34,941 bases of DNA from a virus. A program made the position numbers and the translations under genes. The stretch is taken from positions 1-34,941 of IMG/VR virus record IMGVR_UViG_3300025634_000102; one strand, given 5' to 3'. The notes under the pieces were generated by a model that worked only from the letters and a program-made list of their open reading frames with translations, had not been told where the DNA came from and searched no databases. Within the stretch, counting starts at the first letter, position 1. Each line of letters begins with the position of its first letter. Of this stretch, positions 5,366-34,941 are shown piece by piece.

Positions 5366-6589
5366 TTAGTTCCTGAATGACGAGGTCATTTGCGTAGATT
5401 TCGCCGCTGCCTTTGTGACCGCGTGTTGCAGATGCGGCTTGAGCTTCTGCTCTATCGACTTGCCGATTTTTTCTGGATCGACCGTGATATTGATCGCGTC
5501 GAAGTGAACGCCCGCATAGCCGGCTCCGCCGTAGGGGTTGTAGCCAACGTCTTTTATTCCACTTCGCGTGCCATCGCGGCCGGCGGCATTTACCGCTGGG
5601 TCAATCAGCAGGTGTTTGTCGTAATCAATAGTCTGAACCAGCTCACTCCAGCGATTGGCGAAGAAGCCGCCTGATCCGCCGTCCTTGTCGCCGGCGTTGA
5701 GCAAATCGCGTGCGCCTTCGACCGCATGTTTCACGCCCTCGACCAAACCCGGAATTTGCCCAAGGGCTTCGTTGAAGACGCCGAGCACTGGCCGCGCCAA
5801 TTCATTCTCCAGAGAGGTCCACTCCGCCTTCATGAGCGTCATTTGGTGGGCAAACTCATTCCCCATCTTCACGTCGCCCTCATCGACGGTGGCGTGCATA
5901 TTTTCCATCGTCCGCTGGAAATCGAGGATGCCTTCCGAGCCTTCATGCATCAAGGGCTTTAGTGCCGCGCCGGCGCGGCCCATCAAATCCTGAAGCACGC
6001 GGCCCTTATCTTCCTCCTTTGCTAATCCTTTGACTGCCTCAGCCACAGAGAGAAACATCCCCTGCATGTCGCCCATATGGCCTTTGACAAAATCCGCACT
6101 TAAGCCGATCTCGTTGAACTTTTTGGCCACATCGCCGCTGGGGTCGCTGGCGGCGTCAGACATATTACGAGCGAGGAATTTGAACGAGGCGCTCAACTCG
6201 TCAACGCCGACGCCATGCTCCTCGGCCAGAGGCGCGAGCGAGGAGAAGAAAGTCGAACTGACTCCGGCGAGTTCGGCTTCCTCCCCGATGTGATGGAACT
6301 CTTCGGCCACTCCGAAGGTGTTCTCACGCAAAATACCCATCAACGAAGCAGCCGCATGAATCCCGCCCAGGAGTGGCCCTTCGCTGAAACCCGCGGTGAT
6401 GCTTTGGATTTTGGCGGAGAACTGAGTCAGGCCGGTCGCCTCACCGAACGACTCGTTGACCTGCTCCATGATCTCGCGGACTTGCCCGCCGAAGCCTTCG
6501 GCGTGCGTGAACGATTCGCTGATGCCATGATCGAAGCTCGTGTGGTCGAGGTCGAGCCTGCCGGTAATTGCTCCCGCATCCCAAGCCAT
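5366..6589 (-). CDS. Tail tape measure protein
   Basis: This 407-residue, largely helical protein follows the chaperone frames. Alternating charged and small hydrophobic residues run through most of it, with a helical GVSSTFFSSLAPLAEEHG segment near 110-127 of the kind seen in tape-measure proteins and a Gly-rich break near 310-350. The start ATG overlaps the stop of the frameshifted chaperone frame as TAATG and is preceded by GGAGGT, a strong ribosome binding site. Tape measures set tail length at about 0.15 nm per residue, so a tail near 60 nm would be expected; that is an inference and short for a siphovirus. No lytic domain was seen. Confidence 0.75.
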   Translation of the reverse strand: MAWDAGAITGRLDLDHTSFDHGISESFTHAEGFGGQVREIMEQVNESFGEATGLTQFSAKIQSITAGFSEGPLLGGIHAAASLMGILRENTFGVAEEFHHIGEEAELAGVSSTFFSSLAPLAEEHGVGVDELSASFKFLARNMSDAASDPSGDVAKKFNEIGLSADFVKGHMGDMQGMFLSVAEAVKGLAKEEDKGRVLQDLMGRAGAALKPLMHEGSEGILDFQRTMENMHATVDEGDVKMGNEFAHQMTLMKAEWTSLENELARPVLGVFNEALGQIPGLVEGVKHAVEGARDLLNAGDKDGGSGGFFANRWSELVQTIDYDKHLLIDPAVNAAGRDGTRSGIKDVGYNPYGGAGYAGVHFDAINITVDPEKIGKSIEQKLKPHLQHAVTKAAAKSTQMTSSFRN

Positions 6590-9044: not shown

Positions 9045-9932
9045 TTAATCAATCCTCCCGCTGGTGAGGAGGTAATGTTTAAGGAGGTCGTAGGCGCGGG
9101 AGCAAAGCCGCGTGCGCACGCCCGGAGCCATGGCATCGTATTCCTCTCGCAGCGATCCGGTTCCCGCGCCTTTGAGGCCGTCATGAATGGCGTTCAAACG
9201 ATCTTCGCGGGTGGCAAGAATGATCGATCCAGCCTGAATGATGTTGGCCATGCGAACGTTTTGGGGGATGACCACGGCGCGAGCGAGCCAATCGAAGTCA
9301 AGAATTGATTCACCGTATCCCAAAAGCCCGCCAACATTTGAGGGATAACCGCCAACCCACGAGGCCGATGTAGACGATTCGTAGGCAATTCGAGGAAACT
9401 CCCGCAACTGGCCGGGTGAATATTTACGGCCCTGGTAGCGCATTCCGCGATCGATCTCATCGGCGCCGCGAGAAAGACTGGCTTGCTGAGGCGAGCTCGT
9501 CGCCGCGAGAAACGCCGTCTCTTCAGCACCGATCATTTGCCCGGCCAGGACGATGGCGTCAGCGGCGGAGAGATAACCCGCCCGCATGGATGGATTGAGA
9601 GTGCCGGCGGCGGCCGAGGCTTGAACCGAAGTCCATTGAATCGTTTGCAGGCCGACGAGTTGGTCGGTGGTTGCGGGCGTTGAAGCCGCCTGAGCGTAGT
9701 AGCGGCAGGTGTATTCGGCGGCGACAACGATGCCGGCGGGAAGGTCGCCGACATAAAGACCCGGCGTGAGGATGCTCGGGCCTTGCTCGGCGAGCGCGAC
9801 GGCATAGCTGGCCAGGTGAGCGGAGTTGTAAGCCTCGAAGGTCGAGCCGGTCCAATACAAACCCGCCGCGTTTGCGATGGTCGCGTAAAGCGTGAGGCCG
9901 GATTGATATTGTGCGGTGAGTTCGGAGGCCAT
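9045..9932 (-). CDS. Head-tail connector protein with extra N-terminal domain
   Basis: The 295-residue protein appears to have two parts. Residues 1-75 form a beta-type domain with LTLYATIANAAGLYW and TPGLYVGDLPAG. The remaining 200 residues read as a helical connector or adaptor: GADEIDRGMRYQGRKYSPGQ near 155-175, FPRIAYESS, then IPQNVRMANIIQAGSIILA and a C-terminal helix near DLLKHYLLTSGRI. The GRKYSPGQ.xEFPR pattern followed by IPxxVxxA is typical of phage head-completion adaptors that dock on the portal. The N-terminal part resembles small fibre-associated domains and may be a fusion. Placement just before the neck genes supports the connector role. Confidence 0.6.
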   Translation of the reverse strand: MASELTAQYQSGLTLYATIANAAGLYWTGSTFEAYNSAHLASYAVALAEQGPSILTPGLYVGDLPAGIVVAAEYTCRYYAQAASTPATTDQLVGLQTIQWTSVQASAAAGTLNPSMRAGYLSAADAIVLAGQMIGAEETAFLAATSSPQQASLSRGADEIDRGMRYQGRKYSPGQLREFPRIAYESSTSASWVGGYPSNVGGLLGYGESILDFDWLARAVVIPQNVRMANIIQAGSIILATREDRLNAIHDGLKGAGTGSLREEYDAMAPGVRTRLCSRAYDLLKHYLLTSGRID

Positions 9933-11766: not shown

Positions 11767-11778
11767 TTTTCACTTCCT

Positions 11779-11803
11779 GGCTGAAAACTAAAAACTGAAC
11801 ACT
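11779..11803 (-). repeat. Host-type leader phrase (gttttcag type)
   Basis: On the minus strand this reads gttcagtttttagttttcag, a member of the 'ttttcag' phrase set also seen at 26,051 and, reversed, at 27,011. It ends about a dozen bases before the start codon of the gene ending at 11,320. Confidence 0.6.
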
Positions 11804-13737: not shown

Positions 13738-14646
13738 TTACAAGAGACCCTTGAGACGGGCAACGGTGCGCGGGTGGAATGTGCCGATGCCGACAACGAG
13801 TTCAACCACGTCGAGGTAATACTCGCCGAGACATCCGACCTGGCGAACCTTGATCTCGCCGTCGAGGCCGATGATTCCTTGCAAATATTCCTCGTCAGCG
13901 TCGCCGCCGAGTTTGGCGCAGTAGAGTGAAGTGGTCACGCTGGAATTTCCGCAGGTTTCATTCTGCGACAGGATCGGCGTCTGCTGGCCATCTTCGTCTA
14001 ACACGATGATGGGAATATCGTTCCAGGATTTGATCTGTATGAGGTTCTGTGCATCTTGAGAAAACGCACTGATGCCGGCCTTCAGTATTGTGAGTTGACG
14101 GCGAATGTATTTATCACAGATCAGGACCTTGTTTTCCTCACTGCCGACAACGGCGTCGATGGTTTGGTCAACCATGCCGCGGGTGCAATTCGCGCCGTTG
14201 GTTCCAGCGGTGATCAACTGGCTGCCGGAGCATCGCGCCTGGAGGCCGGTGAATTGAGTGGGATCGACCGCCGGGTCGCCCTTGATTACATATTTGTCAA
14301 AGTTCAGGCCGGTGGAATTCACCAGCCCGCCGATTTCGCGTGCCCGGACGGTTTGGCCGTTCGGGCTTTCCACGATCACGGAGTCGGGGGTGGATTTTCC
14401 ACCCATCACGACGAGCGTCTCGACTTCAGGGGTGATTAAACTTTGGCCTGCGGTATAGAGCGCATTAAGAGCGCGACCGCCCGCCGCCGGCTGAGCCTTG
14501 CGGACGGCGTATTTATAGTCGAGTCCGGTCGCCTTCAGGAACTTGAGAACTTTCAAAAACGCCGATTTGTTCGTCACGCGCTCAACGAGCTTGTGCGTCA
14601 TTGGCGAGGGCGATTGTGCGGCGTAAGAGATCAAAGAGAGAGCCAT
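13738..14646 (-). CDS. Major capsid protein, HK97 fold type
   Basis: The 302-residue protein is in the canonical position (terminase, portal, scaffold, then capsid) and is of typical size. The start ATG at 14646 has AAAGGA just upstream. Residues 1-60 are helical; the middle alternates strands with a GLNFDKYVIKGDPAVDPTQF stretch near 112-131; the C-terminus ends with FHPRTVARLKGLL, a style of ending common in capsid proteins. No protease or scaffold delta-domain is fused. A hairpin at 14,665-14,695 separates it from the scaffold gene and probably helps set the higher expression it needs. Confidence 0.75.
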   Translation of the reverse strand: MALSLISYAAQSPSPMTHKLVERVTNKSAFLKVLKFLKATGLDYKYAVRKAQPAAGGRALNALYTAGQSLITPEVETLVVMGGKSTPDSVIVESPNGQTVRAREIGGLVNSTGLNFDKYVIKGDPAVDPTQFTGLQARCSGSQLITAGTNGANCTRGMVDQTIDAVVGSEENKVLICDKYIRRQLTILKAGISAFSQDAQNLIQIKSWNDIPIIVLDEDGQQTPILSQNETCGNSSVTTSLYCAKLGGDADEEYLQGIIGLDGEIKVRQVGCLGEYYLDVVELVVGIGTFHPRTVARLKGLL

Positions 14647-16466: not shown

Positions 16467-18218
16467 TCATGCCGCCACCTCATCATCCGCTTCGGCCGCG
16501 TTGTCCGCCGTCTCAGGATCATCCGCCGCCTCTTGCAATTTGCCGCCGGGAGCACCTTCGCCGGCCGGAGGCTGTTCGCCACTGCCCCCAGCGTTGCCCG
16601 CCGCACCGAAGCCACTTGCCCCGCCCGCGCCGAATAAGACGCTCGGCGTCTTCGCCGCGTTCTCTTTTGCAAGCTCCGCTTCCTCCGCCGCCACCTGCGT
16701 GGCATCGCCGTTCAGCCGGAGCATCAGCGCGTTGTGAACGCTCATGGTTCCAGCGGCGCGGTAGACGCTGACCGTGTTGGCAAGGTCGATTTCATCGACA
16801 GGTAAACCGTCTTGAAGCTCGCATTGGGTTTCGCCGGTGTCGTAGCGATTGCCGGGAATGGTTTGTTCCAGTGCCTGGGCGACGCAAATCATTTGCGTGA
16901 TGCCGCCGGTCCAGAACGATGATTTGCGCGCGGCTTTGCGAACCGAGGTATAAGCCTGCACGCGAACCGTCTTGTACGCCTCCGCACCGCCGCCGCCGGG
17001 GCGGATGCCGATCAGGATCGGCGACACTTCGACTTGCTGAAGCAAAGCATCACGCTGGAAATTCCGATCCTCCAGTGCGTATTGCAACTCCGCTCCCGCC
17101 CAGCGGAGATAGGCGGGTATTCGGTTCGGATCGACATAGAAGAACGCGGCATTGGAGGCTCGAATATTTCCCTGCGCGTCCGCGGCTTCGACGGGGAACG
17201 CCATCTTCGGATCGGCGTGTTTAGCCAGCACGCGGAAGATTTGCGTCTCCTTGGCATTGAGGATGTCCTGAAGCGGAATGGCGCCGTCGTAATCGCTCAC
17301 CGGACGGCCGCGTGAAAACTGGTTGGGAATCCAAACGATTGTGTTGTAAGGGATGCCGGTCTGCTGAACCGGCACCAGCATGTTATCTTCCAGGTCTTGC
17401 GCCATCAGCGGGTATTGCGGCGGCGCGAGCATGCCTTGCGCTGTCATAATCGCCGTGCCGCGTTCGGGAGCCTGGGCGTCGGCGTTATTGTCGTCCACCG
17501 TGGCTGTTGCCGGCGCGGGTGCGGGGGACGCTCCGTTCCAGAATTTCAGGTCGATTTCCTTGCCGAGCTTTCCGTCTTTATCGAGCTGGTAAAGATGCCG
17601 CTCGATGCGGCCGGGGAAGTAGCTTTGCTTGAGGAGAAGATTGATCGGGCAATCCTTGGTGCCGATGTCCTTGACGAGCAACCGGTCGTATTGGGCAAAC
17701 TGGCCATCGGGTTGAATCTCGCCGACCGGGAAAATCTCGTCAACGGGAACCTGCTGAAGATAAACTTCGCCGCGCCAGACAATCGCTTCAATGATCGCCT
17801 CGGACTCGTAGGCGCAGTCCATCGCGCACGAGTAGATCAGCCGGTGAAGCTTGGATCGCTTGATGAGTTTGGCGAGAAATCCCTTTTGGATTTCGTTGTC
17901 GCATTGAATGAGCGGAGCGCGGCCGAAGAGCATGTCCGCGTTGATGAGGCTGGAGAGTCCGAGCAGGTTCATGGTGATGTAGGGCTGAATCTTTTGCTCG
18001 GCGGCATACATGGGCTGGAAATCAGCTTGCGACCGGCGTTCGTCGAGGAAGTACGTTCGGTGGTTGCCGTCGGCGAGCAGGCGAGCCTGGCGGATGCGCT
18101 CAAGGCGTTCCTGTTGCGCGCCGGAGAGGAACGAGGCGTAGCCACCGCCGCGCATGGACTGCCAGTTGGGCATGGTCGAGTAGACCCAGACAGCCGGGAT
18201 TTTGACGGGGATTTGCAT
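16467..18218 (-). CDS. Portal protein, SPP1 gp6-like
   Basis: The 583-residue protein lies between the large terminase and MuF genes, as portals do. An early helical region contains PYITMNLLGLSSLINADMLF near residues 79-98, a pattern typical of SPP1 gp6-type portals, followed by a mixed domain with HRLIYSCAMDCAYESEAI near 125-142. The last 60 residues are Gly/Ala/Glu-rich and probably disordered. Mu itself has a DUF935 (gp29) portal, so this head module is not purely Mu-like. The portal forms the dodecameric DNA channel and binds terminase. The ATG at 18218 begins 2 bases after the terminase stop. Confidence 0.8.
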   Translation of the reverse strand: MQIPVKIPAVWVYSTMPNWQSMRGGGYASFLSGAQQERLERIRQARLLADGNHRTYFLDERRSQADFQPMYAAEQKIQPYITMNLLGLSSLINADMLFGRAPLIQCDNEIQKGFLAKLIKRSKLHRLIYSCAMDCAYESEAIIEAIVWRGEVYLQQVPVDEIFPVGEIQPDGQFAQYDRLLVKDIGTKDCPINLLLKQSYFPGRIERHLYQLDKDGKLGKEIDLKFWNGASPAPAPATATVDDNNADAQAPERGTAIMTAQGMLAPPQYPLMAQDLEDNMLVPVQQTGIPYNTIVWIPNQFSRGRPVSDYDGAIPLQDILNAKETQIFRVLAKHADPKMAFPVEAADAQGNIRASNAAFFYVDPNRIPAYLRWAGAELQYALEDRNFQRDALLQQVEVSPILIGIRPGGGGAEAYKTVRVQAYTSVRKAARKSSFWTGGITQMICVAQALEQTIPGNRYDTGETQCELQDGLPVDEIDLANTVSVYRAAGTMSVHNALMLRLNGDATQVAAEEAELAKENAAKTPSVLFGAGGASGFGAAGNAGGSGEQPPAGEGAPGGKLQEAADDPETADNAAEADDEVAA

Positions 18219-18220
18219 TT

Positions 18221-19681
18221 TTAGGTGTACCCCGCCGGGAGTTCGGGAAGTGATTCAGGGAGTGATCGCACCGCGTTCTTCGCGCCCGCCATGCGTGCCA
18301 GGGCGAGCGACCAGGCGATGTCGCAGTGGCTGGACATCAGGAGCACGTTGTCAGTTTCGTCGAGCGCCAGTTGACCGCCGGTGTCATCTTTTTGTATGGC
18401 ATAAACGTCGGTGGCGATGAACTTGTATTTTTCGAGTCCCGGCAGGGTTTGTGTGCAATCTCCGAAAGCGGTGGCGAGGTTGCTGGCGAGTTCCTTTTTG
18501 CGTGTGCCGCCGAAGTTGACGCCCGTCCAGCGATCGCGGAATTTTCCTTCGAGGAATTCGTTTGACTCCATGCCCAATCCGGTGGAGTCGCCGCACCCGA
18601 CTGAGCCATATCCGCCCGCTTCCATCGCCGCAGTGACCACGCCCCTCTGCGTGGCGAAGGGAACTCCGTGCATGAGGATCACGAAGCGCAATTGCTTCGG
18701 CCGGCCCATGCGGTTGAGGTTGCCCGTGACGACGGACAAATGCCCGCGCCGCGCCACGTCCCAGCCGATCTCGACGCGGCCGCCAGCGGCGCGGAGATTC
18801 ATGTTGGTAAAGAAGTCGAGCGGCAACGCCCCGCCCGCGTCGAGTTGGGCGATGCTGAAATCCAGCCCCGCGCCGAGTGCCGCGGCGGCTTCGATTTGCG
18901 CCCACTTGACGAGTGATTCGAGGTCGCCGGTAAACTGGCACATGTATTCACGCGGCCATTTGCCTTCGTCGTTGTACAGGCGGCGGAAGGCGGCGATGGT
19001 TGTGGGGTTGCCCTTGTTATCGCGGAGAACGAATCCTTCCTGATTCACCGATTGTTCGATGTCGCAGGTGTGAACGCTGTAAGTTTCGCTATCGCGCCAG
19101 AGTTCGTAGAACTTGGTGTTTTTTCCGCGCGGCGTGCTGATGACGATGACCTGGAATCCGCGCGTGGTAATCGGAAAAATCACCGACCAGTGGGCGTAGC
19201 CGCCGCCGGGGAAGAGGCCGAACTCGGTGAGGATGATGTTGCCGGTGAGACCGGCGAGTGTGTCAGGATCGCGGCCGGGAAGGCTGACCACGCGCCCGCC
19301 AGAGGGGAAGGTGATCTCGCGGGCTTTGCATTGGAAGATTTGGTCGATGGTTTTGTCGCGTTCAGTGAAATCGGTTTCAGAGTAACGCAGCTCCTGTTGC
19401 AGCTTTGCGACGCGACGATAGGCCTCGGCGAATTGTCGGCATTTTGCGAAGGTCGCGTCGGCCTGGCGTTGTGTGATGGAGACGATGAACCACGATTGCC
19501 CGGTGCGGGCGGCATTCTCGACGGCCTTGGCGGCGGCGGTGAAATCTTTGCCCTTTTGCCGGTGCCAGTTGACGACGATGACGCGGGCTTGATCCTCGAA
19601 GAATCGCTTCTGCGAGGCGTCGAAGCGAACCATCGGTTCGATGTCGAGATTAGCGGCGGCGGTGGCGGCGGTGGCGTTCAT
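18221..19681 (-). CDS. Terminase large subunit, Mu gp28-like
   Basis: The 486-residue protein has an ATPase part with a Walker-A-like RQKGKD at residues 41-46 and a Walker-B-like hydrophobic strand ending in TE (NIILTEF, residues 148-154; the usual Asp is Thr152). The nuclease part carries three Asp residues in the expected order: Asp308 in GWDVAR, Asp365 in GDSTGLG, and Asp454 in HCDIAW. These suit an RNase-H-like packaging nuclease. It starts at the ATG at 19681, overlapping the small-subunit stop as TAATG. Function: ATP-driven DNA packaging and cutting, headful-style in Mu-like phages. The changed Walker B residue deserves checking. Confidence 0.85.
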   Translation of the reverse strand: MNATAATAAANLDIEPMVRFDASQKRFFEDQARVIVVNWHRQKGKDFTAAAKAVENAARTGQSWFIVSITQRQADATFAKCRQFAEAYRRVAKLQQELRYSETDFTERDKTIDQIFQCKAREITFPSGGRVVSLPGRDPDTLAGLTGNIILTEFGLFPGGGYAHWSVIFPITTRGFQVIVISTPRGKNTKFYELWRDSETYSVHTCDIEQSVNQEGFVLRDNKGNPTTIAAFRRLYNDEGKWPREYMCQFTGDLESLVKWAQIEAAAALGAGLDFSIAQLDAGGALPLDFFTNMNLRAAGGRVEIGWDVARRGHLSVVTGNLNRMGRPKQLRFVILMHGVPFATQRGVVTAAMEAGGYGSVGCGDSTGLGMESNEFLEGKFRDRWTGVNFGGTRKKELASNLATAFGDCTQTLPGLEKYKFIATDVYAIQKDDTGGQLALDETDNVLLMSSHCDIAWSLALARMAGAKNAVRSLPESLPELPAGYT

Positions 19682-21579: not shown

Positions 21580-21606
21580 GATTTTCTCCAAAAAAGGTTT
21601 TGTTTT

Positions 21607-21636
21607 ATTCGTGCCGATTCGTGCCCATTCGTGGAT
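21607..21636 (-). repeat. Host-type leader phrase (cacgaatgggcacgaat type)
   Basis: On the minus strand this is gatccacgaatgggcacg followed by aatcggcacgaat, ending about 27 bases before the start codon at 21,579. It is the same style of short tandem phrase as those upstream of other genes in the element. Confidence 0.6.
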
Positions 21637-22389: not shown

Positions 22390-22921
22390 ATTGGCCTCGC
22401 TATGGGGGGGGGGTTATTTTCGTAAAAATCCCGCCGCGCAAACGCCGATTTGGCGGCGGGACGCTCCGCTTCCGTGCGGGGCAGGTTGAAAAACGCGGCG
22501 AGGCGCATCAGGCCGCGTCGCGCTGAGGTTCCCCGACCGAGATCAACGTGTGCGGGTACCCGCCGCGCCAGTTGGATGGCCGTTAATTTTCCATCGACGG
22601 TTTCGGTGGGTTGTGAATGTGGAATTGGGAGGAATTTTTGCGCGAAGGCGCGGAGGGTGAGATCCGGCGGCGGAGTTTGATCCGCGTGATCTACGCCATC
22701 CGTGGTTGATCGCCGCACATCCATGCGCGAAATCCAAAACGAGAACGCCCATGCGTGATGCCTGTCCACGTCGCTCAACCAGCGCGGGGCAGGCCGCATG
22801 GGCCATCAGTTCGTTCCGTTTTCGCGTTCATGCGAAGCGGTAGTGACTCGCTCGCAGGTGATGATCTTGCTCAAGTGCTTTCGGTAAGTCAAGGGGCGTC
22901 CAATTAAATTCTAAATATTTT

Positions 22922-23401
22922 TCAAGTTAAATCTTCGCGGATTTGCAGCCCGCATCGCGGACAGATCAGCACATAGCCGCTTCGGAACATGAGGTAGAGG
23001 AGGCCGGGAATGATGAATAGGCAAAAAAGGAAAACGAGGAGAAACAGCGATCCGCGAGCACGGCGACGTGGCTTGCCTCGATACCCGCAGTTGGGATTCG
23101 GGCAGATGATCGCCCCGCGCGGAAGGGATGCGGGTGAAGCCACCATTGATTTGGCGACTGCGTCGATGCCGCGCATGGCGGCGCGAAGAATGACGGGCTT
23201 CGTTCGCCTCCTCACCGGTTGCGGAAGTGAAGCTGTTTTGATCTCTGTAAGCTCGTTATCCTTTTTGAGTCGTTCGTAGCATTCGGGGCACAAAACCCAT
23301 TTGCCGTGGATTTGCGGAGCATCCATTCGCTTGATAATCAGTAGGCAATTGTCGCATTTTTCCCCTATATCCACGCCGTTTTCCGTCATATTAGCACCCA
23401 C
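22922..23401 (-). CDS. Zinc-ribbon membrane protein
   Basis: This 159-residue protein has a CxxC pair near the N-terminus (CDNC), a second CxxC near residue 38 (CPEC), another Cys pair before a single membrane segment (CPNPNC, then LFLLVFLFCLFIIPGLLYLMF), and a last pair after it (CPRC). The paired cysteines suggest zinc ribbons on both sides of the membrane segment. The GTG at 23401 overlaps the repressor stop as TAGTG; an ATG four codons later is an alternative. It is co-transcribed with the repressor, so it may act in lysogeny or superinfection exclusion. The function is unknown. Confidence 0.6.
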   Translation of the reverse strand: MGANMTENGVDIGEKCDNCLLIIKRMDAPQIHGKWVLCPECYERLKKDNELTEIKTASLPQPVRRRTKPVILRAAMRGIDAVAKSMVASPASLPRGAIICPNPNCGYRGKPRRRARGSLFLLVFLFCLFIIPGLLYLMFRSGYVLICPRCGLQIREDLT

Positions 23402-24105
23402 TATAGTTCAACAATCTTCCTGACCGCCCTCATCATCTTCACGATCTCCGTCTTCTTCGTCCGCGCGGTGCGGTAGCGAATATTGATCGGACTGAGGATG
23501 AGCTTCTCCGGGTCGCTCGGATGTATTAATACACGCTTGAAGGTCGATGTGCCACCCAAAAGCTGAACGTAATAGCACTTCCCTGCACGCAAACCTTCCT
23601 TAGCAAAAGACTCCGCCCAAAAGACGACGGTGTCGCCCTCCTTGAAATCAGGCTCCATGCAGTCGCCGCGAATGGTCAACGCCAGATCGCCCGATCCGCT
23701 TGGAATCGCGATACCGTCGCTCGCGTCGTCGGTGAACGTCTCCCTCAGTGGCTCGGCCGCGATGGGAAGGTCAAATTTCGGTATGACCTTAGTCCCCTTA
23801 GCGCTGTCTATATATACTCCGGGCGGGGCGACGGGCCTCGGGTCATTCGCTAGATCAAATTCCTCACTCGCCTGAATCTTGGCCCGATCCCAATCGGCGA
23901 GGCTGTCATAATCGAGCGATTCCGCTAATTCTTTCTCTCTCTCCCGGCGGATGCGAATCTTTTGCTGCCTCAGCCATCGCGTCACGGTTTGAAGGATGAA
24001 TTTATTCTCCCTCGCAAACGCCGAAACATTCATGCCCGTCTCGGCGATCCTGTCACGCAGCCAGCGGCCTTCGTGGAATTCTTTTTTGCCTTCAACCCTT
24101 TTCAT
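23401..24105 (-). CDS. Phage repressor with S24-type domain, nucleophile replaced by Cys
   Basis: The 234-residue protein has an N-terminal HTH (about residues 14-48) and a C-terminal S24/LexA-like domain. In LexA and lambda CI the nucleophile is the Ser of G-x-S-M; here the motif reads RGDCM, with Cys149 in the Ser place. The general base Lys190 (TFKRVLI) is present, and the 41-residue spacing matches the family (lambda CI Ser149/Lys192). No Ala-Gly cleavage site is evident to me. It is divergent from the early operon and probably controls it. The Cys may cleave slowly, not at all, or respond to redox. The ATG at 24105 is followed by a basic start. Confidence 0.8.
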   Translation of the reverse strand: MKRVEGKKEFHEGRWLRDRIAETGMNVSAFARENKFILQTVTRWLRQQKIRIRREREKELAESLDYDSLADWDRAKIQASEEFDLANDPRPVAPPGVYIDSAKGTKVIPKFDLPIAAEPLRETFTDDASDGIAIPSGSGDLALTIRGDCMEPDFKEGDTVVFWAESFAKEGLRAGKCYYVQLLGGTSTFKRVLIHPSDPEKLILSPINIRYRTARTKKTEIVKMMRAVRKIVEL

Positions 24106-24272
24106 CGCCGCAGTTTAAGAAGCGTCCGGCGGTCGCGTAAGAGAAAAAATCATAATTCGCGCTTGCATTTGTCGATGTGTTATACCATAGTGGAGCATAA
24201 TAGAGCGTTACGAAGCGCAACAGAGCGCTTTAGAACACAAGGAAGGCGAGAAAATAGAGGAAGGAGCCTGTA
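24106..24272. promoter_or_regulatory. Divergent control region between repressor and early operon
   Basis: The 167 bases separate the repressor from the early operon. On the minus strand TCGACA (24,175-24,170) and TATGAT (24,154-24,149), 15 apart, form a reasonable promoter for the repressor. On the plus strand TTGCAT (24,163-24,168) and CATAGT (24,186-24,191), 17 apart, form a weak early promoter. The two overlap, giving a face-to-face switch. Downstream are three related short units (tggagcata, agagcgttacg, agagcgcttta) between about 24,191 and 24,235 that could be operators. An AAGGAG ribosome binding site serves the first early gene. Assignments are by eye. Confidence 0.45.
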
Positions 24273-26806: not shown

Positions 26807-26834
26807 CCACAGATGAACACGGATGAACACGGAT
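26807..26834 (+). repeat. Host-type leader phrase (acagatgaacacggat type)
   Basis: ccacagatgaacacggat is followed by gaacacggat, directly after the stop of the preceding gene. AAGGAAGG follows, the ribosome binding site of the peptide gene at 26,858. Confidence 0.65.
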
Positions 26835-26857
26835 CATTTCAAGGAAGGAAGGCCCAC

Positions 26858-27013: not shown

Positions 27014-27033
27014 ACACTGAAAACTGAAAACTG
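27011..27033 (+). repeat. Host-type leader phrase (ctgaaaactgaaaactg type)
   Basis: tgaacactgaaaactgaaaa continues with ctgg just before the phage sigma-factor gene. It is the reverse of the 'ttttcag' unit at 26,051, so this family can lie in either orientation. Confidence 0.65.
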
Positions 27034-27056
27034 GACCGACGTAGGAAGGACACGGC

Positions 27057-27785
27057 ATGGACGCCGCCGAACGGGAACTTTGGATGCAATTCTCTGCCGC
27101 AAAAGGTTCTGAACGCCTTCGCTTGCGAGACTGTCTCCCGGCGAGGTTTGATCCGCTCGTACTCAAGGTCACTCGAAAGGTGAAGGCTTCTTTACCCGCG
27201 AATATTCAGTTCCAAGACGTCGCGCAGGATGGACGAATTGGGATGCTGCGTGCGATTGAGCGATTCGACTTGTCACGCAAAAAGACCTTCGGCGCTTTCT
27301 CATTTCGCCATATTTACGGCGCAATCATAGACGCCATGCGTTTGCTAGACGAAGTTCCGCGATTGGCTCGTAAGCGTGGCCTTTGCCCCGTGACTTTTCA
27401 AATGGGTGAGCGATCCGTTCGCGGCGGTCTTATCGACGGCGAAAATCCCTGCCATGACATGCAGAATTGGGCTGATCCGCGCGTAGCTCGGCCGGGCGCC
27501 CGGATCAGCAGCGATGACGACATCGCTCGCCTTCTGGCTCCATTGCAAAAGAGAACGCGGGAGTTCGTGACGATGTACTTCATAGATGGATTGACCATGA
27601 AAGAGATCGGAAAGCGATTCGATGTCGGTGAGGCGACGGTGAGCAATGCGATCGGTCATGGGGTTCGCGTTCTGCGTGGCACTGCCGGGCTTGCCCTTCC
27701 ATCTCGCCGCGCCGACTACGGCCGCACCCGGCCGATTCGCGTTAATCGCAACAAGCGAGTTCTTCGCTTGGCGGAGGCCGCGTGA
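27057..27785 (+). CDS. Phage-encoded sigma factor, FliA/WhiG-like
   Basis: The 242-residue product has sigma region 2 near residues 50-95 (QFQDVAQDGRIGMLRAIERF, then a KKTFGAFSFRHIYGAIIDAM helix that fits core binding and -10 melting) and region 4 near 155-205, including LTMKEIGKRFDVGEATVSNA, a helix-turn-helix for -35 recognition. Regions 2 and 4 with a short linker suit FliA/WhiG-type factors. The ATG at 27057 has AGGAAGG upstream. The stop overlaps the transposase start as GTGA. A sigma gene here could direct late transcription in place of Mor/C. No matching GCCGATAA-type late promoter was found by eye. Confidence 0.75.
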   Translation: MDAAERELWMQFSAAKGSERLRLRDCLPARFDPLVLKVTRKVKASLPANIQFQDVAQDGRIGMLRAIERFDLSRKKTFGAFSFRHIYGAIIDAMRLLDEVPRLARKRGLCPVTFQMGERSVRGGLIDGENPCHDMQNWADPRVARPGARISSDDDIARLLAPLQKRTREFVTMYFIDGLTMKEIGKRFDVGEATVSNAIGHGVRVLRGTAGLALPSRRADYGRTRPIRVNRNKRVLRLAEAA

Positions 27786-29806
27786 GCATGGTTCTCGCTT
27801 CATCTTCCTTCACCGCCCCGGCCGCGGCCGGGATCCGCTGGCTCTCCCTCTCCGACGCCGCTGCACGCAGCGGCAAGAGCGAGGGGCATCTTCGCCGCCT
27901 TTGCGGCGAGCAATGGATGCCTGACGGTCTGGCCGCCCTGCGCACCCCGCCTGACGGCGGGTCACGCCAGACCTGGTTCATCCGCGAAGACGCCGATCCG
28001 TCCCTCGCCCGCGTCGCCACCGCCGAGCAGATCGGTGCGGAACTCGACCTGCGCACGCTCACCGGCGATCAACGCGCCGAGCTTTTACGCCGCGAGCAGA
28101 TCGTCAGGGATTGGCTCAGCCGCCGCGCCGCCGCCGTCGCCGCCAGCTTCAATATCGCCGAAGCCATGGAGCGGTTTCTCTCGCTGGTTCCCGGCCTCTG
28201 CAGGGCCACGCTTTACAATTGGACGGCGGAATACGAGCGAGCCGGTCGCGCCGGTCTGGTCGATGGACGCTGGAACACGGCAGACCCCAACGAAGCCGTC
28301 GGCGCCGCCGATGAATTCTTTGAGGAAGTCCAGCGGCTTTGGCTGACTCAACGCGGCCGGTCCAAGCGGCTCTGCTACGATCATGCCTGTTTCAAGGCGA
28401 CGGATAAAAGCTGGGCGGTGATTCCCTACCGCACGATCTGCCGCAAGCTCGACGCGCTGCACCCGCACCTGGTCAAGATCAACCGCGAGGGGATGCGCGA
28501 ATTCGACGCCAACCACGGCCCCTTCCGCTCTCGCGATTATTCCGTGCTGGCCAGCAACGAAGTTTGGGAGAGCGATCATCACCAATTTGATGTCTGGGTT
28601 CAGAGCGCGGCCAACCCCGCTAAATATGTTCGCCCCTGGCTGACCGCATGGATGGACGTGCGATCCCGAATGTTTGTCGGCTGGTGGATCGGCGAAGACG
28701 CGGGAACCTCCGCCACGATCGTGCGGGCGCTGAAGCTGGCGATCACGGTCAACGGGGTTCCGCAATCGGTTCACGTCGATAATGGCAAGGATTACGACTC
28801 GCGCATCTTGCAAGGGATGAGCAAGATCGAGCGGCACAACTGGAAGAACATCGAGATCAACGAGCGGCCCAAACTGCTCGGCATCTTCCCCATGCTCGGC
28901 GTGACGGTGCATCACGCGCGGCCGTACAACGCCAAGGCGAAGACGATTGAGCGTTCCTTTAACACCGTGTGCGGCCGGTTCTCCAAGATGTGGGAAACTT
29001 ATTCCGGTGGCTCGACGCAAACCCGCCCCGATGATCTCGGCCAGCAACTTGCCGCCGGCCGAGCGCCGACCTTCGCCGACTTTTGCGCCTCTTTCGCCGA
29101 CTGGGTGGATTCTGACTATCACCATCGCGTTCACCAAGGCGATTCGATGGGTGGGAAATGCCCCGCCGCGGTCTACGCCGAGCAGCTCGCCGCCAAACGC
29201 GCGGTGAGTGAGTCGGCAATGAAGATGGCGTTCCTTCGTTTCAGTAAGGCACTCAAGATTCGCCGAAACGGCGTAACGTTTGAAGGATTGACCTACGGCG
29301 CGAACCAGCTCGCTGAGTGGCAGGGCAAGAGCGTGATCGTCGGCGCGAGCGATGATGACCGTAATCAAGTCCACATCTTCAACCCCGACCTGTCGCTTCT
29401 GTGTGTGGTGCGGTGCAACGAGAAGCTGCCGTACATGGGCGCATCGAAGGAACAGATGGCCGATGCCGGACGCGATCGCAAGGCGGCGCGGCTGACCGCA
29501 CGCAAGGCGTTTGAGCAGCGCCCGCGATTGGTGGAGTCGATGGCCGACACGCTGGCGCGTCGCGCCGCCGAGCAGCGTGGCGCGGCGACACAAGCCGAGC
29601 CGCAATCCATCGAGCCGATCCGCACGCCGTTTGATGTGAAGGCCGCGCTGACCGAGCAAGAGGGAAGCTCGATGCGCATCGCGGCCGGCGGCGGCGGCGG
29701 CGATTCGATGTCGGTCTTCGGCTACCGCTCGCGCGACATCGAAGAAGATGAACCGACCCCGGCCGCGTTCGAATATCGACGCCCCGACGATGGAGGTGCG
29801 GCGTGA
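27782..29806 (+). CDS. MuA-like DDE transposase
   Basis: The 674-residue protein matches MuA in length and in order of catalytic residues: Asp265 (ESDHHQF), Asp333 (VHVDNGKDY) and Glu390 (AKTIERSFN), close to MuA Asp269, Asp336 and Glu392. An N-terminal HTH part (LSLSDAAARSGKSEGHLRRL, residues 21-40) and a DNA-binding part with LYNWTAEYERAGRAGL near 144-159 precede the core. A basic C-terminal region includes RDRKAARLTARKAFEQ. It joins phage ends to target DNA and replicates by transposition. Start GTG at 27782, GGAGG upstream, overlapping the sigma stop. Confidence 0.9.
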   Translation: MSMVLASSSFTAPAAAGIRWLSLSDAAARSGKSEGHLRRLCGEQWMPDGLAALRTPPDGGSRQTWFIREDADPSLARVATAEQIGAELDLRTLTGDQRAELLRREQIVRDWLSRRAAAVAASFNIAEAMERFLSLVPGLCRATLYNWTAEYERAGRAGLVDGRWNTADPNEAVGAADEFFEEVQRLWLTQRGRSKRLCYDHACFKATDKSWAVIPYRTICRKLDALHPHLVKINREGMREFDANHGPFRSRDYSVLASNEVWESDHHQFDVWVQSAANPAKYVRPWLTAWMDVRSRMFVGWWIGEDAGTSATIVRALKLAITVNGVPQSVHVDNGKDYDSRILQGMSKIERHNWKNIEINERPKLLGIFPMLGVTVHHARPYNAKAKTIERSFNTVCGRFSKMWETYSGGSTQTRPDDLGQQLAAGRAPTFADFCASFADWVDSDYHHRVHQGDSMGGKCPAAVYAEQLAAKRAVSESAMKMAFLRFSKALKIRRNGVTFEGLTYGANQLAEWQGKSVIVGASDDDRNQVHIFNPDLSLLCVVRCNEKLPYMGASKEQMADAGRDRKAARLTARKAFEQRPRLVESMADTLARRAAEQRGAATQAEPQSIEPIRTPFDVKAALTEQEGSSMRIAAGGGGGDSMSVFGYRSRDIEEDEPTPAAFEYRRPDDGGAA

Positions 29807-30648
29807 GCACACCAATGTATACCTATCACCCCGCGTGCCTGTATTACCCAGAAATCTCCCCGGTTGAATTAGAGGAGATGGCGAACAGCATAAAGAGGGA
29901 AGGGCAAAAGCTCCCCATCTTAATCGACGATCTGAACCGCATCATCGACGGGCGAAACCGCTACAAGGCTTGTTTGTCATTGGGCATCGTTCCCCGGTTC
30001 GAAGTCATCAAGGACGACGCCATTGCCACTACCATCGCGATGAACATTAAGCGGAGAAAAGACACATCCCTCCAACGGGCTTGCATCGCAGTGTTGGCGG
30101 CTGACAGTGTCAAAGCCTCGCGTCGCCGCGGCAGGTCTGGTTACACCGACAAAGGCGGAGGTCAGTTCGAGATGTTGGCGCGGATGTTTGCCACACATAT
30201 GAGCTCTATAGCGTTCGCCAGAAGGGTTTTTAATTCTGACCCGACAATGTTTGAGGAACTTCGTTGTGGCAGGATTACGGACTGTTCTTGCCGTCGCAAA
30301 GTATTAAAGCGTCAAGTCGTTTGTATTAAAATTGAGGATGTAGCCTATGGCGCGTCTCGCCGCATCACGATCGAACGACCACTTGATTTCACACTAGAAA
30401 ACTTCATGGATCGGCTTAACGCGGCATTCCCTGAGCCGCGTGCTCCCTCGGGTACTCTCCTTCTAAACCGCGATAGGATTGCCCGGATAGAAAAGAGTAG
30501 AGCGTTTTGGGAAAGTAATCGTGCCCTTCTCGGCACTATGACAGACGGGAAGTTGGCCGCGATGTTTGGAGTCACAAAGCAGTGTATTTTGCAAGCTCGC
30601 GCACGTCTCGGAATTCCCCCATTCAGCAGCCGTGGAGTCTCCGCATGA
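29803..30648 (+). CDS. ParB-like nuclease/DNA-binding protein
   Basis: The 281-residue product has a ParB/Srx-like N-domain: LEEMANSIKREGQKLPILID near residues 23-42 and RIIDGRNRYKAC near 46-57 (the GRNRY takes the place of the ParB GERR). The C-terminus has a HTH (DGKLAAMFGVTKQCILQARA) and ends RLGIPPFSSRG. Mu encodes no such protein between A and B. GC is visibly lower than in the genes on either side, hinting at separate origin. It could condense or partition DNA, or regulate. The GTG at 29803 overlaps the transposase stop; an ATG four codons in is possible. Confidence 0.7.
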   Translation: MSTPMYTYHPACLYYPEISPVELEEMANSIKREGQKLPILIDDLNRIIDGRNRYKACLSLGIVPRFEVIKDDAIATTIAMNIKRRKDTSLQRACIAVLAADSVKASRRRGRSGYTDKGGGQFEMLARMFATHMSSIAFARRVFNSDPTMFEELRCGRITDCSCRRKVLKRQVVCIKIEDVAYGASRRITIERPLDFTLENFMDRLNAAFPEPRAPSGTLLLNRDRIARIEKSRAFWESNRALLGTMTDGKLAAMFGVTKQCILQARARLGIPPFSSRGVSA

Positions 30649-31859
30649 CTGTCTCACCCCTTCAACCGCAAGACCCTAATCTGCCGCAAGAATCAGCGGC
30701 TCAGCCTCAACACGGAAGTCAATCCCGCGACGTTCTTATAGATCGTTCGCGGATTAGAGGAGCAAATCGCATGTTCAAGGAAGGCACGGACGCCTCCTCA
30801 GTCACCGAGGAGCAATGGAAGCAAGTCGCCGACGACGTGAAGTCGTTGCAGCAGCATTACAAGCTGACAAAGAAATACATCGCCAAGGCCGCCGGCTACA
30901 GTGAATCCGTCATCAGTGAATTTCTCAACGGCGGGTACAAGGGCAACAACGGCGACGTAGCGATCAACCTTGATTCGTGGCTGGTCGAAGAGGAGGCGCG
31001 ACGCGCCCGGCCGGCCACCACGCAATTCGTTTGGACGGAGGTCGCCAAAAGCATCCGGGCGGTCGCTGACTTTTGCTCCGACAAACGCAAGATTGGTCTG
31101 ATTCACGGCCCCGACACCAGTGGCCTGGGCAAGACGATGGCGTTGACCGCCATCAGCCAGCAACTCGGCCCGCGCCGCTGCACGCTTGTAACCATCGACA
31201 AAGTGGACGCCAACCCGACCGGATTGCTCCGCAAGATTTGCTCCGCCATGCACGTTCAGGACAGCGGCAGCAACCGCCAGCGGTTTGAGCGGTTGGTCGA
31301 GGAGCTGAAGGGTTCGAGCCATTTACTTTTGATCGACCAGGCTCACAACCTGCGCGGCAGCAAAGAGGACAAACCATTCTACATCCTCACCGACCTTTAC
31401 GACGCGACCGGAACCGCCCAGCTTTGGTGCGGCACTTCTGACCTGGTCGCCTATTTACAGAAACAGCAGATCCGCCAGGCAGATGAATCGCTGGCGCAGA
31501 TCAGGCGCCGGATTTACCCGGTGGTCGATCTGATGGAGAAGGCGCGATCGGGCGACGGCGGAACTCCGCTGGTTACGGTTGACCAGGTCAAGGAGATGTT
31601 CGCCCGCAACACCATGAAGCTGACCACTTCGGCGGCACGGTTCCTTTGCCAATTGTGCAACCTCCCCGACAGCGGCGCGGTTGGGTTCTGCGTGAGTCTG
31701 GTCGAGTATGCCACCTGCATCGCTGAGATGAACAATCTCAAAGCAATCGACACGCCACAACTCGTCGAGGCGATGCAGCTCGGCCTCACACGCGATCGCG
31801 CCATGAAGTTGATGGCCCGGTTGCCGGAACAAACTATTCAAGCCCGGAAGGCGGGATGA
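30645..31859 (+). CDS. MuB-like transposition ATPase
   Basis: The protein has 404 residues from the ATG at 30645, which makes an ATGA overlap with the ParB-like stop; an ATG at 30771 with GAGGAG is an alternative. An N-terminal HTH resembles that of MuB (YIAKAAGYSESVISEFLNGG, residues 78-97). The P-loop is GPDTSGLGKT (Lys163), longer than usual and with Asp where the first Gly normally sits. Walker B is LLLIDQAHN: the usual Glu after Asp231 is Gln232. An RRRIYPV sensor-like stretch lies near 287-293. MuB picks target DNA and activates MuA. The residue changes raise the question of whether it hydrolyses ATP. Confidence 0.8.
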   Translation: MTVSPLQPQDPNLPQESAAQPQHGSQSRDVLIDRSRIRGANRMFKEGTDASSVTEEQWKQVADDVKSLQQHYKLTKKYIAKAAGYSESVISEFLNGGYKGNNGDVAINLDSWLVEEEARRARPATTQFVWTEVAKSIRAVADFCSDKRKIGLIHGPDTSGLGKTMALTAISQQLGPRRCTLVTIDKVDANPTGLLRKICSAMHVQDSGSNRQRFERLVEELKGSSHLLLIDQAHNLRGSKEDKPFYILTDLYDATGTAQLWCGTSDLVAYLQKQQIRQADESLAQIRRRIYPVVDLMEKARSGDGGTPLVTVDQVKEMFARNTMKLTTSAARFLCQLCNLPDSGAVGFCVSLVEYATCIAEMNNLKAIDTPQLVEAMQLGLTRDRAMKLMARLPEQTIQARKAG

Positions 31860-32335
31860 CCTTCAACATGCCGATCACCGCCGACCAAGTTCGCCTGATT
31901 CACGTTGCCGCCGGCATCGCGGGGATGAACGACGCGCAATACCGAGCCGTCCTGGCCAACGTCGGCGGCGTCGATACTTGCAAGAAGCTCGATCAAACGA
32001 CCTTCGAAGACTGTATGGCCGTCATCGAAGATCAGGGTTTCGGAGAGACCGAGAACGATCCGGGCTACTGGCGGCGAAAGGTGGGCAACCGCCGCTTCGT
32101 CGCCAACGAGCGGCTGGTTTACCGCATCGTGGCGATGTCTGAGGAATGCGGCTACCCGCTGGCGGGTTTGGTCGAACGTTTTACCGGCGGCCGCACCCGC
32201 GACGCCAAGGGACTGACACCGATCGAGGCGCATCAGTTGATCGAGTGCATGAAGCAAATGATTCGTCGCGGCGAGAAATCCGCGACGCCTCAACCGCCGC
32301 TTCCATTGGGTGAGGTTTTGAAGGCGGCGGGATAG
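31856..32335 (+). CDS. GemA-like / Mu gp16-type regulator (DUF1018)
   Basis: The 159-residue protein matches the DUF1018 family at the N-terminus: ITADQVRLIHVAAGIAGMND near residues 7-26, AQYRAVLANVGGV, then FEDCMAVIEDQGFGE. A second conserved part follows (YWRRKVGNRRFVANERLVYR, LTPIEAHQLIECMKQMIRR). In Mu, gemA/gp16 follows the transposition genes and modulates host gene expression and DNA topology; here also it follows MuB with ATGA overlap. The exact biochemical role is unclear for the family. Confidence 0.8.
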   Translation: MTFNMPITADQVRLIHVAAGIAGMNDAQYRAVLANVGGVDTCKKLDQTTFEDCMAVIEDQGFGETENDPGYWRRKVGNRRFVANERLVYRIVAMSEECGYPLAGLVERFTGGRTRDAKGLTPIEAHQLIECMKQMIRRGEKSATPQPPLPLGEVLKAAG

Positions 32336-32377: not shown

Positions 32378-32710
32378 ATGGATGATCCCACAACTCCAAC
32401 TCTTCCATTCGGAAGCACCTCCCTCCTCGCCGGCAACGTCGCGGCACAGTCAATCCCCGCCCGTTATTCCGCAATCCTCCACATCCTCATGGATGGCCCC
32501 GCCGCCATCTGGCAGATCGCCATCAAGCTCAAAGTCCTCGATCACCAGATCAGCGGACGTTTTGGCGAGCTTTGTGGCCGAGGTTTTATTCGCCCTGCCG
32601 GGCGCCGGATTGTAAAACCGGCGACGGGTTGCGCCACCGAGGTCTACGAACTGACAACCGAGGGCATCGCGCGGGTTGTTAAACAGGATCGGGGGAACGA
32701 TGAGGATTGA
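32378..32710 (+). CDS. Winged-helix DNA-binding protein
   Basis: This 110-residue product has an N-terminal Pro/Thr stretch and then a winged-helix region: YSAILHILMDGPAAIWQIAI near residues 30-49 and LDHQISGRFGELCGRGFIRP near 54-73, with a beta wing (TEVYELTTEGIARVV). It could regulate early genes or the methyltransferase that overlaps it by 11 bases. Small hairpins lie just upstream: GGCGGC/GCCGCC at 32,323-32,340 and GGCGAC/GTCGCC at 32,352-32,366. GAAGG precedes the ATG at 32378. The role is inferred from fold alone. Confidence 0.5.
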   Translation: MDDPTTPTLPFGSTSLLAGNVAAQSIPARYSAILHILMDGPAAIWQIAIKLKVLDHQISGRFGELCGRGFIRPAGRRIVKPATGCATEVYELTTEGIARVVKQDRGNDED

Positions 32711-33572
32711 AACAGACCCTTCCTCGGCCTTTAAGGTTTACGACATGAATGGACAGGCCGGCATTCATGCCGCCGCCTGCGTCGGCCCCGCTCTTCTCTT
32801 TCGCGGCGACGCGATTCGAGTCTTGGCCGAGTTCCCCGACAACTCCTTGGATGCGATCATCACCGACCCGCCTTACGGTTGCACCGACAACCCGTGGGAT
32901 AAGAAGATTGATCTTAATTCGTTCTGGACCGAAGTCAGCCGGATCGCCAAGCCCACGGCCATTGTTTCGATTTGCTCTCAACAACCCTTCACGACCGACT
33001 TGATCAACTCCCGTCGCGGCGACTGGCGTTATGAATTGATCTGGGCAAAATCGCACCCGACCGGCTTCCTCAATTCCGCCACACGGCCATTGAAGTCGCA
33101 TGAGTCGATTCAGGTCTTTTCCCGTAAGTGGTCCGGCGTGACGTTCAATCCTCAGACCACGGCCGGCAAGCCTTACGCCCAATTGACCGGCGGCGTCTCC
33201 AGCAATTGGGGAAGATTCAAGCGAGTGAAGACGGTTAATCGTGGAACCCGGCATCCGAGGTCGGTGCTCTACTTCACTAGCTCGCGGTCAAAGGGTCAGC
33301 ATCCGACCGCCAAGCCATTGTCGATGGGAGAGTGGCTAGTCCGGTCATTCACAAATCCCGGTGATATGGTTCTTGATCCATTCATGGGGCATGGAACCTT
33401 CGGCACCGCGGCGGTTGGCCTGGGTAGGAAGTTCATCGGCGTTGAGATGATGGTGTCGTATTTCAATGTCGCTTTGAGCCGTATCAACGACGCCTATTTG
33501 GAGCAACAGGCGCAGTATTCGCGCGGTGCAACTGGTTTGAATGCGCGCGAATCGCGCGCGGCGCGCGGATAA
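32700..33572 (+). CDS. Orphan DNA methyltransferase (DPPY, beta-class order)
   Basis: From the ATG at 32700 the protein has 290 residues. The catalytic DPPY (residues 56-59, ITDPPYG) comes first and the AdoMet motif DPFMGHGTFG comes near the C-terminus, the order of beta-class N6-adenine/N4-cytosine enzymes. A variable target-recognition part lies between. No restriction enzyme is nearby, so it is probably used for self-protection or regulation of phage DNA. The start overlaps the previous gene by 11 bases, with purine-rich sequence upstream. The 3' 100 bases and the following DNA are repeated in decayed form 427 bases downstream. Confidence 0.85.
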   Translation: MRIETDPSSAFKVYDMNGQAGIHAAACVGPALLFRGDAIRVLAEFPDNSLDAIITDPPYGCTDNPWDKKIDLNSFWTEVSRIAKPTAIVSICSQQPFTTDLINSRRGDWRYELIWAKSHPTGFLNSATRPLKSHESIQVFSRKWSGVTFNPQTTAGKPYAQLTGGVSSNWGRFKRVKTVNRGTRHPRSVLYFTSSRSKGQHPTAKPLSMGEWLVRSFTNPGDMVLDPFMGHGTFGTAAVGLGRKFIGVEMMVSYFNVALSRINDAYLEQQAQYSRGATGLNARESRAARG

Positions 33573-33800
33573 TTACACAATATTGCTAATACTATAACTC
33601 GTTGATTTTGCGCGGTTAATAAATATTCAGCGATTCGCGCGCAATCTAAAATAGGCCATGAATTCGCCCAAAAATCCCTCGAAATCTAATGTAAATAAAC
33701 TTGCTAACTGGTTGTAAGTTTCCTCGCATTATCCGCTCGATTCATCCCACATCATCCCGGATCATCCCATCTAATCCCGCATGGCCGGTCACACCGGCCA
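33469..33800 (+). repeat. Right-end repeat, copy A
   Basis: This 332-base unit covers the last codons of the methyltransferase and the AT-rich DNA after it (tgctaatactataactcg), ending in the palindrome tggccggt-cac-accggcca (33,782-33,800). It is repeated at 33,896-34,216 with roughly 70-75% identity by eye. An inverted repeat (tgcgcgcgaatc / gattcgcgcgca) flanks the AT-rich core. It may hold the transposase end sites of the prophage. Confidence 0.6.
33727..33800 (+). repeat. ATCATCCC iterons and palindrome at the right end
   Basis: Five spaced units of the type (t/c)(a)TcATCCc recur about every 10-13 bases: cattatccg, gattcatccc, acatcatcccg, gatcatccca and ctaatcccg. The palindrome tggccggt/accggcca follows. 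A period of about one helical turn suits ordered protein binding along one face, as in transposase-binding or partition sites. The same array is partly kept in copy B. Confidence 0.5.
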
Positions 33801-33862: not shown

Positions 33863-33995
33863 CCGTTCACGCGGCCGTTGAAGTCGCGTGAGTCGTCGCT
33901 TTGAGCCGCATCAATTATGCCTATTCAGAGTGAGCGTCGCAATATTTGCGCGATTTGACTGGTTTGAACGCGCGCGAACAGCGCGCGGCGCGCGG
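33863..33995 (+). pseudogene. Decayed methyltransferase fragment
   Basis: The DNA gcggccgttgaagtcgcg matches the methyltransferase gene at 33,081-33,107, and the next bases (tcgctttgagccgcatcaa) match 33,469 onward, so about 361 bases have been lost between. That is not a multiple of three, so the frame is broken, and a stop follows within a few codons. The 3' end (gaacgcgcgcgaacagcg) still resembles the true gene end. It looks like the remnant of a second, related methyltransferase gene. Confidence 0.65.
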
Positions 33996-34216
33996 CAAAT
34001 CATACAATATTGCTAATGACGTAACTCGTTACTTTTCCAATATTAATAAATATTCCAGTATTCGCGCGCAATGCCAAGTAGGCTGAGAATTCGCCCGAAA
34101 CGCCGCTAAAATGCCAACTGTGAAAATTTGCGGCTCTCGTTTAATATTCCTCGCATTATCCGCTAGATTCATCCCACATCATCACATATTATCCCGTGCC
34201 ATCTCGCTTGGCCGGT
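33896..34216 (+). repeat. Right-end repeat, copy B (decayed)
   Basis: Copy B parallels copy A over its whole length, including the methyltransferase 3' end, the AT-rich core (caatattgctaatgacg), the ATCC-type iterons (34,153-34,195) and the tggccggt half-palindrome at 34,209. The other half of the palindrome is missing because the sequence passes directly into the sigma-factor gene, whose stop lies inside it. This fits an older end sequence from a related element. Confidence 0.6.
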
Positions 34217-34941
34217 CACAGGCGATGTGGGGGCTTGCTGCATAACTTCGAAACCTTTGTTCTTGCTTTCTGTCTTCGGCGGTGCGGCGCGACTTCGGCG
34301 GGGTCCGGTTCGCGCGAATAAGGTGCGATCTCCAAGTCAAGTTTGAAATCCTGGGCGGCAAGAATTTCGAGGCGTTGGCGAAGAGCCATATATGCGGTGG
34401 CCAGATGGCGGTCGAGCGTAGAGCGATTCTCGTTCAAAGCCCGGGCAATTGTTGAAAGCGATTCTCCCTCCAACATCATTTGCATCGCCTTTCGTTCCAA
34501 TTCAGGAACCGACGCGAGGAGTCTCTTCAACATCTCGACTAAGTGTGCATGCGTCGGAATCACCGACGCGTCGCCCCTTTCTTGAAGGCGACCGCGCAAC
34601 GCTTCGTCCCAAAACTGATCAAGCTCACCGCTATTCGACGACAGGCTTTTCGATTTGGAAATGCGGTTGCGTCGCCTTCGCCGTTGTTCACGCAGCACAT
34701 TCAGCACAATCCGCTTAACCCATGGCCAGACCGCCTTCGTGTGATCGTAACGGGGCGCGAGTTTGTGGATGCGAAACAATGCCTCCTGCGAAGTGTCCGC
34801 AGCGTCGGTCGCAGTCAATCCGTGCCGTTGGGCGAAATGTTCAAAAATCGCATGGTAGTTTTCGATAAAATCTCGTCGAACTTCGGGCGGCCACTGTTTG
34901 AACCAGTCAGACGAAGACTTGGCTTGATTCGATCCACTCAT
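34216..34941 (-). CDS. RNA polymerase ECF-type sigma factor (host)
   Basis: The 241-residue product has sigma-70 region 2 near residues 30-95 (ATDAADTSQEALFRIHKLAP, VWPWVKRIVLNVLREQRRRR) and region 4 near 130-190 (LLASVPELERKAMQMMLEGE, SLSTIARALNENRSTLDRHL). The sequence type is common in ECF-like factors of Planctomycetes. The ATG lies exactly at the right window edge, so the true start could be further out. The stop (34,218-34,216) lies inside the half-palindrome of repeat B, so the last residues may have been rewritten by element DNA. It is probably the chromosomal flank rather than a phage gene. Confidence 0.75.
   Translation of the reverse strand: MSGSNQAKSSSDWFKQWPPEVRRDFIENYHAIFEHFAQRHGLTATDAADTSQEALFRIHKLAPRYDHTKAVWPWVKRIVLNVLREQRRRRRNRISKSKSLSSNSGELDQFWDEALRGRLQERGDASVIPTHAHLVEMLKRLLASVPELERKAMQMMLEGESLSTIARALNENRSTLDRHLATAYMALRQRLEILAAQDFKLDLEIAPYSREPDPAEVAPHRRRQKARTKVSKLCSKPPHRL

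Follow-up and report, generated by a model that had tools for sequence, protein, structure and literature searches.

Can a Mu-like transposable phage place its later genes under a sigma factor of its own? The question is raised by a gene of the sigma-70 family that directly precedes a transposase gene, in a phage record with no recognisable Mor activator. A preliminary description of this locus proposed that the phage uses its own sigma factor for the late switch. In this study, the reading we favour is that the phage carries an alternative sigma factor in its early operon, whose most likely targets are later genes of the phage itself; we put the probability of this reading at about one half.

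A transposable prophage with two diverging arms

The window, by which we mean the whole stretch of DNA analysed, is the entire virus record G000 of 34,941 bases, and it is a B3/Mu-like transposable prophage whose host is probably a planctomycete. A transposase (TnpA) with rve/Mu-transpos_C domains, a TnpB ATPase and GemA are all present, together with head, tail and packaging genes within the one record. The late (structural) arm occupies the minus strand from 549 to 22799 and is transcribed leftward, with genes for the tape measure (5366-6589), head-tail adaptor (9045-9932), major head protein (13738-14646), portal (16467-18218) and terminase large subunit (18221-19681), all on that strand. 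A CI-like repressor gene (23401..24105, minus strand; phrog_4, 5.3e-15) is separated from the early operon by a divergent control region (24106..24272), which from its layout and sequence is a candidate for the early promoter on the plus strand. The plus strand carries the sigma gene (27057..27785) and, after it, genes for TnpA, a Mu/B3-type DDE transposase of 674 amino acids from a GTG start (27782..29806; phrog_310, 1.7e-88; Mu-transpos_C, 3.8e-8), a ParB-like protein (29803..30648), TnpB, a MuB-like transposition ATPase (30582..31859; phrog_296, 8.1e-42), a GemA (Mu gp16) family protein (31856..32335; PF06252, 5.9e-9) and an N6/N4 DNA methyltransferase (32676..33572; PF01555, 6.1e-25). B3-like phages, including the transposable prophages of Leptospira, have the same two diverging arms around regulatory genes with gemA near one end, a layout that has been described as two arms apart, regulators between them and gemA near an end (PMC8705779).

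Single-sequence scans yielded no close relatives of the sigma factor or of TnpA in viral contigs, nor of TnpA in genome contigs, and relatives of both were then detected with alignments. TnpA led to four related virus contigs (L099, L100, L101 and L011; 31-36% identity) and to L090, which belongs to a Phycisphaerales MAG, making a planctomycete host likely. Two of these sister phages have a single early-operon ORF (L100:6472-7809 and L099:6580-8199) with matches to the ParB-like protein as well as to the methyltransferase; the window has a separate gene for each.

Near the right end, a repeated block (33468-33793 and 33895-34220; offset 427, 77-84% identity) spans the 3'-terminal part of the methyltransferase gene plus an AT-rich tail. 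Since both copies end in TGGCCGGTCACA, TGTGACCGGCCA is probably the right terminus of the phage, present twice, and the right end is likely the TGTGACCGGCCA at 34220 or 33793; no left end was recognised within the record. A second sigma ORF, of the ECF type (34216-34941), has its stop codon inside this probable right end. We do not count it as a phage gene; it is probably part of a host flank abutted or interrupted by the prophage, and has no close match in 119 Planctomycetota genomes.

A sigma-70 protein lacking sigma-3

The sigma gene (27057..27785, plus strand) encodes 242 amino acids from an ATG start preceded by AGGAAGG, a good ribosome-binding site. The frame is intact, as are the core motifs in regions 2 and 4. 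Matches above the Pfam cut-offs to both Sigma70_r2 (PF04542; 4.3e-11, 42.9 bits) and Sigma70_r4 (PF04545; 2.3e-8, 33.8 bits) place the product in the sigma-70 superfamily. The protein consists of sigma-2 with region 3.0 (residues 3-108), a disordered linker (110-150), sigma-4 (153-209) and a basic tail. In line with this, an AlphaFold2 model is confident for sigma-2 (3-106) and sigma-4 (153-209), leaves the linker and tail disordered and contains no sigma-3, and a Foldseek search with the model matched sigma factors, WhiG among the best.

The gene had been described as of FliA/WhiG type, a label that fits in part. The best PDB matches of the protein are indeed WhiG and FliA. The likeness is limited to region 4 and to regions 2 to 3.0 (residues ~2-108), and it is pronounced only in the latter, where identity to planctomycete members of the FliA/WhiG (sigma-28) family is 35-41%. 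On the other hand, members of that family have sigma-2, sigma-3 and sigma-4, whereas the window protein has sigma-2 and sigma-4 only, and it scores 85.1 bits against the NCBIfam FliA/WhiG family TIGR02479, below the curated cut-off of 189.6. Furthermore, the DWVPR motif reads DEVPR, so that a tryptophan near-invariant in an alignment of 18 sequences, of which 17 come from other virus contigs, is replaced by glutamate. This substitution makes a non-canonical -10 specificity plausible.

Homologues without sigma-3 occur in other phages. The best full-length homologue among 392 Planctomycetota genomes (36-37% identity) also lacks sigma-3 and sits in a prophage, ~3 kb past a repressor-like gene and ~5 kb ahead of a terminase. 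In L203 such a homologue lies directly before the terminase and portal genes, and in L183 and L194 among tail genes. These neighbourhoods would fit a function in controlling phage genes but are no proof of one. In another phage contig (L166:695-1692), a gene for a CsrA-like regulator overlaps a gene for a sigma-3-less FliA-like sigma factor, with an excisionase-like gene following. FliA-like sigma factors were found in 54 other viral loci, and none of 40 tested viral records bearing them matched Mu-transpos_C. Three 'phage' matches of the sigma factor (H41, H43 and H44) were rejected, their records being flagellar operons of bacteria despite the phage label; MT835847, MT837366 and MT837854 (L007, L008 and L009), filed as bacteriophage, have the gene content of bacterial flagellar/chemotaxis operons.

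Overlap with the transposase gene

As first described, the sigma gene ends inside the transposase start: the two ORFs share GTGA at 27782-27785 (plus strand), which holds only if the GTG start is used, since an ATG at 27788, directly 3' of the sigma stop, is an alternative start for TnpA. It had also been proposed that the sigma factor is thereby tied stoichiometrically to transposition. That claim finds no support, because exact 4-nt overlaps are routine in this phage (9 of 40 same-strand neighbour pairs, including TnpA/ParB and TnpB/GemA), the transposase start lies just 3' of a ribosome-binding site of its own (GGAGG, ~27773-27777) and the ParB-like gene overlaps TnpA by GTGA in the same way. 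The overlap is ordinary operon packing, which may aid TnpA translation and carries no evidence of a fixed ratio. Translational coupling of the two genes is possible; it is common in compact operons and uninformative on stoichiometry.

Sigma factors and Mor in Mu-like records

The reported absence of a Mor or C activator gene is borne out by the Mor profile (PF08765), which has no match in the window record. Mor is not required of Mu/B3-like phages (PMC8705779), and its lack is not special, since the Leptospira transposable prophages of B3-like layout are also without Mor/C (PMC8705779). Those prophages differ from the window phage in that we found no sigma factor of their own mentioned in that study. 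In phage Mu itself, Mor activates Pm in concert with the sigma70 holoenzyme of the host (PMC4390567). Like Mu, the window phage has A, B and GemA as its transposition module along with a repressor, and in both an early-operon factor would open later genes; the window candidate, however, is a sigma factor instead of a Mor/C activator and sits before tnpA instead of after it.

Across 48 Mu-like records, Mor was above the cut-off in 28, sigma-70 region 2 was found in 11 (the window included) and no record had both. Thus Mor was above the cut-off in 0 of 11 sigma-bearing records vs 28 of the 37 others; one sigma-bearing record (G040) has a weak Mor match below the cut-off. In the ten sigma-bearing records other than the window, the sigma-70 gene lies on the tnpA strand, 4.0-7.7 kb 3' of the tnpA match, at a median distance of 4412 bases, compared with 4508 for Mor. 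Nine of these ten form one clade, and the Mor/sigma label requires ~3 changes on the TnpA tree, so that a hypergeometric P of 7e-6 for mutual exclusion, which treats the records as many independent events, is invalid and overstates the evidence; an independent-pairs test had no power. What the data leave is a positional swap, with sigma in the place of Mor, in a single well-supported lineage; L117 and the window may be separate cases.

An annotated example of a sigma-bearing Mu-like phage is phiRTG5 of Fusobacterium. Phages of this type encode TnpA, TnpB and a sigma-70 protein on one strand, as the window does, and have no Mor above the cut-off in the tested records. Their sigma factors fall into three sequence subtypes; they belong to another subfamily than that of the window and lie where Mor does in others, ~4.4 kb downstream of tnpA.

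A probable lineage-specific addition

The closest viral relatives provide an argument against a simple exchange of activators. None of the four (G001-G004) has a match to Sigma70_r2 or Mor, and a sigma gene before tnpA is absent from all nearest relatives examined. In the TnpA tree of the 48 records, the window is nested within a clade that is sigma-less and Mor-less (support 99). Late expression in this clade therefore needs no such sigma factor and must be achieved in another way, and the window gene is probably a lineage-specific addition rather than a like-for-like replacement of Mor, although the absence from relatives is provisional because the completeness of the records is uncertain. 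Third-position GC content is 0.60 in the sigma gene and 0.57 in the ParB gene, compared with 0.77 in tnpA, 0.73 in tnpB and 0.76 in gemA, and the lower value of the sigma gene relative to the latter three suggests later acquisition. Lineage-specific acquisition beside tnpA would be the simplest history.

Promoters of the late genes

A shared promoter motif before the late genes, proposed earlier as a check, did not emerge. Sites of the FliA/WhiG type (TAAA-N15-GCCGATAA), which may not be this sigma factor's own specificity, were no more frequent than by chance: TAAA-N14-16-GCCGATAA with at least 10 of 12 matches occurred 3 times in the window vs 1-12 times in ten shuffles, and never before late genes. 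The stretch preceding the late arm (22800..22921, minus strand), a candidate for the late promoter, contains no FliA-type site, and its best sigma70-like match is weak (9/12, null 0.05). No gapped word was common to more than two of ten late-gene upstream regions, as in shuffles. With only ten regions and no predetermined specificity for the sigma factor, the scans have little power, and they neither support nor exclude the sigma hypothesis. Short intergenic near-repeats (ACTGAAAACTGAAAACT, CACGGATGAACACGGAT and GGGCACGAATCGGCACGAAT) were noticed by eye at 26810-26835, 27015-27035, 21580-21620 and 11775-11800.

Possible targets of the sigma factor

Action on the phage's own later genes is favoured by an intact gene with core-binding and -35-binding domains in the early operon of a phage without Mor, and by sigma-70 genes at the Mor position in ten other Mu-like records. 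Under this reading, the sigma factor would be made early together with the transposase once the repressor is lost, would bind the host core RNA polymerase and, through a specificity other than that of canonical FliA, would direct the enzyme to promoters of the phage itself, those in front of the late arm being the likeliest. The lack of sigma and Mor in G001-G004, the few tree changes (~3) behind the Mor/sigma exclusion, the missing late promoter motif, the GC3 of the gene and the tail-gene setting in L183 and L194 all weigh against it. The idea of a late switch run by the phage's own sigma factor is a sensible hypothesis, for the early-operon sigma factor of this Mor-less transposable phage is real and a sigma-70 protein takes the place of Mor in other Mu-like phages. 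Sister phages without either regulator weaken it, and the scans lend no support to a late promoter set.

The main rival holds that a host-like accessory sigma factor reprogrammes motility, stress or dormancy genes of the host and is dispensable for phage growth, which we consider rather unlikely. Phage sigma factors as such are already known, and host-like ones can be factors that the phage is able to do without and that affect host networks (Schwartz et al. 2022, PMC9429907). The window gene most resembles the host family FliA/WhiG, is absent from the nearest relatives and has a GC3 unlike that of the transposition genes. Against this, it lies within the early operon beside the transposase and not at a genome edge, and the loss of sigma-3 and the change from DWVPR to DEVPR lower the chance that it uses standard FliA promoters of the host. 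The host-like sigma factors of Bacillus phages are likewise phage-borne homologues of host sigma factors (PMC9429907), but they act on sporulation networks, whereas the window phage is a transposable one, with nothing to indicate a spore-former.

Alternatively, the sigma factor could drive or reinforce the early operon, as positive feedback on escape from repression, instead of the late arm. The gene does lie inside the operon that would be driven, and 24106-24272 is the main control region; no motif supports it, however, the best sigma70-like match in that region (10/12) falls on the repressor strand, the strand searched, and one transcript from an early promoter would already cover tnpA, so we regard this as improbable. 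Slightly less probable still is a recently inserted or decaying passenger without a fixed role and coupled by chance packing, for although the window record alone among the relatives detected has the gene and overlaps of 4 nt are routine for this phage, its intact frame and core motifs and its good ribosome-binding site speak otherwise.

Returning to action on the phage's own genes, a broader proposal can be made only tentatively: that transposable phages have more than once swapped Mor/C for a sigma factor of their own, in this planctomycete lineage a sigma-3-less, FliA-like protein co-expressed with TnpA that would turn the phage from transposition to late expression, with promoter specificity of its own. 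A transposable phage under sigma-factor control did not turn up in the open-licence literature searched. If the sigma factor does run the late switch, Mor/C acting with host sigma70 would not be the fixed means of middle and late control in Mu-like phages, and a sigma factor could replace it. The sigma-or-Mor distribution, mostly at one position, is testable in cultured Fusobacterium phages such as phiRTG5, with no need for an uncultured planctomycete host. Records of phiRTG5-type Mu-like phages of Fusobacterium with sigma-70 in the place of Mor are L004, L043, L046, L048, L050, L051, L060, L068, L083 and L084.
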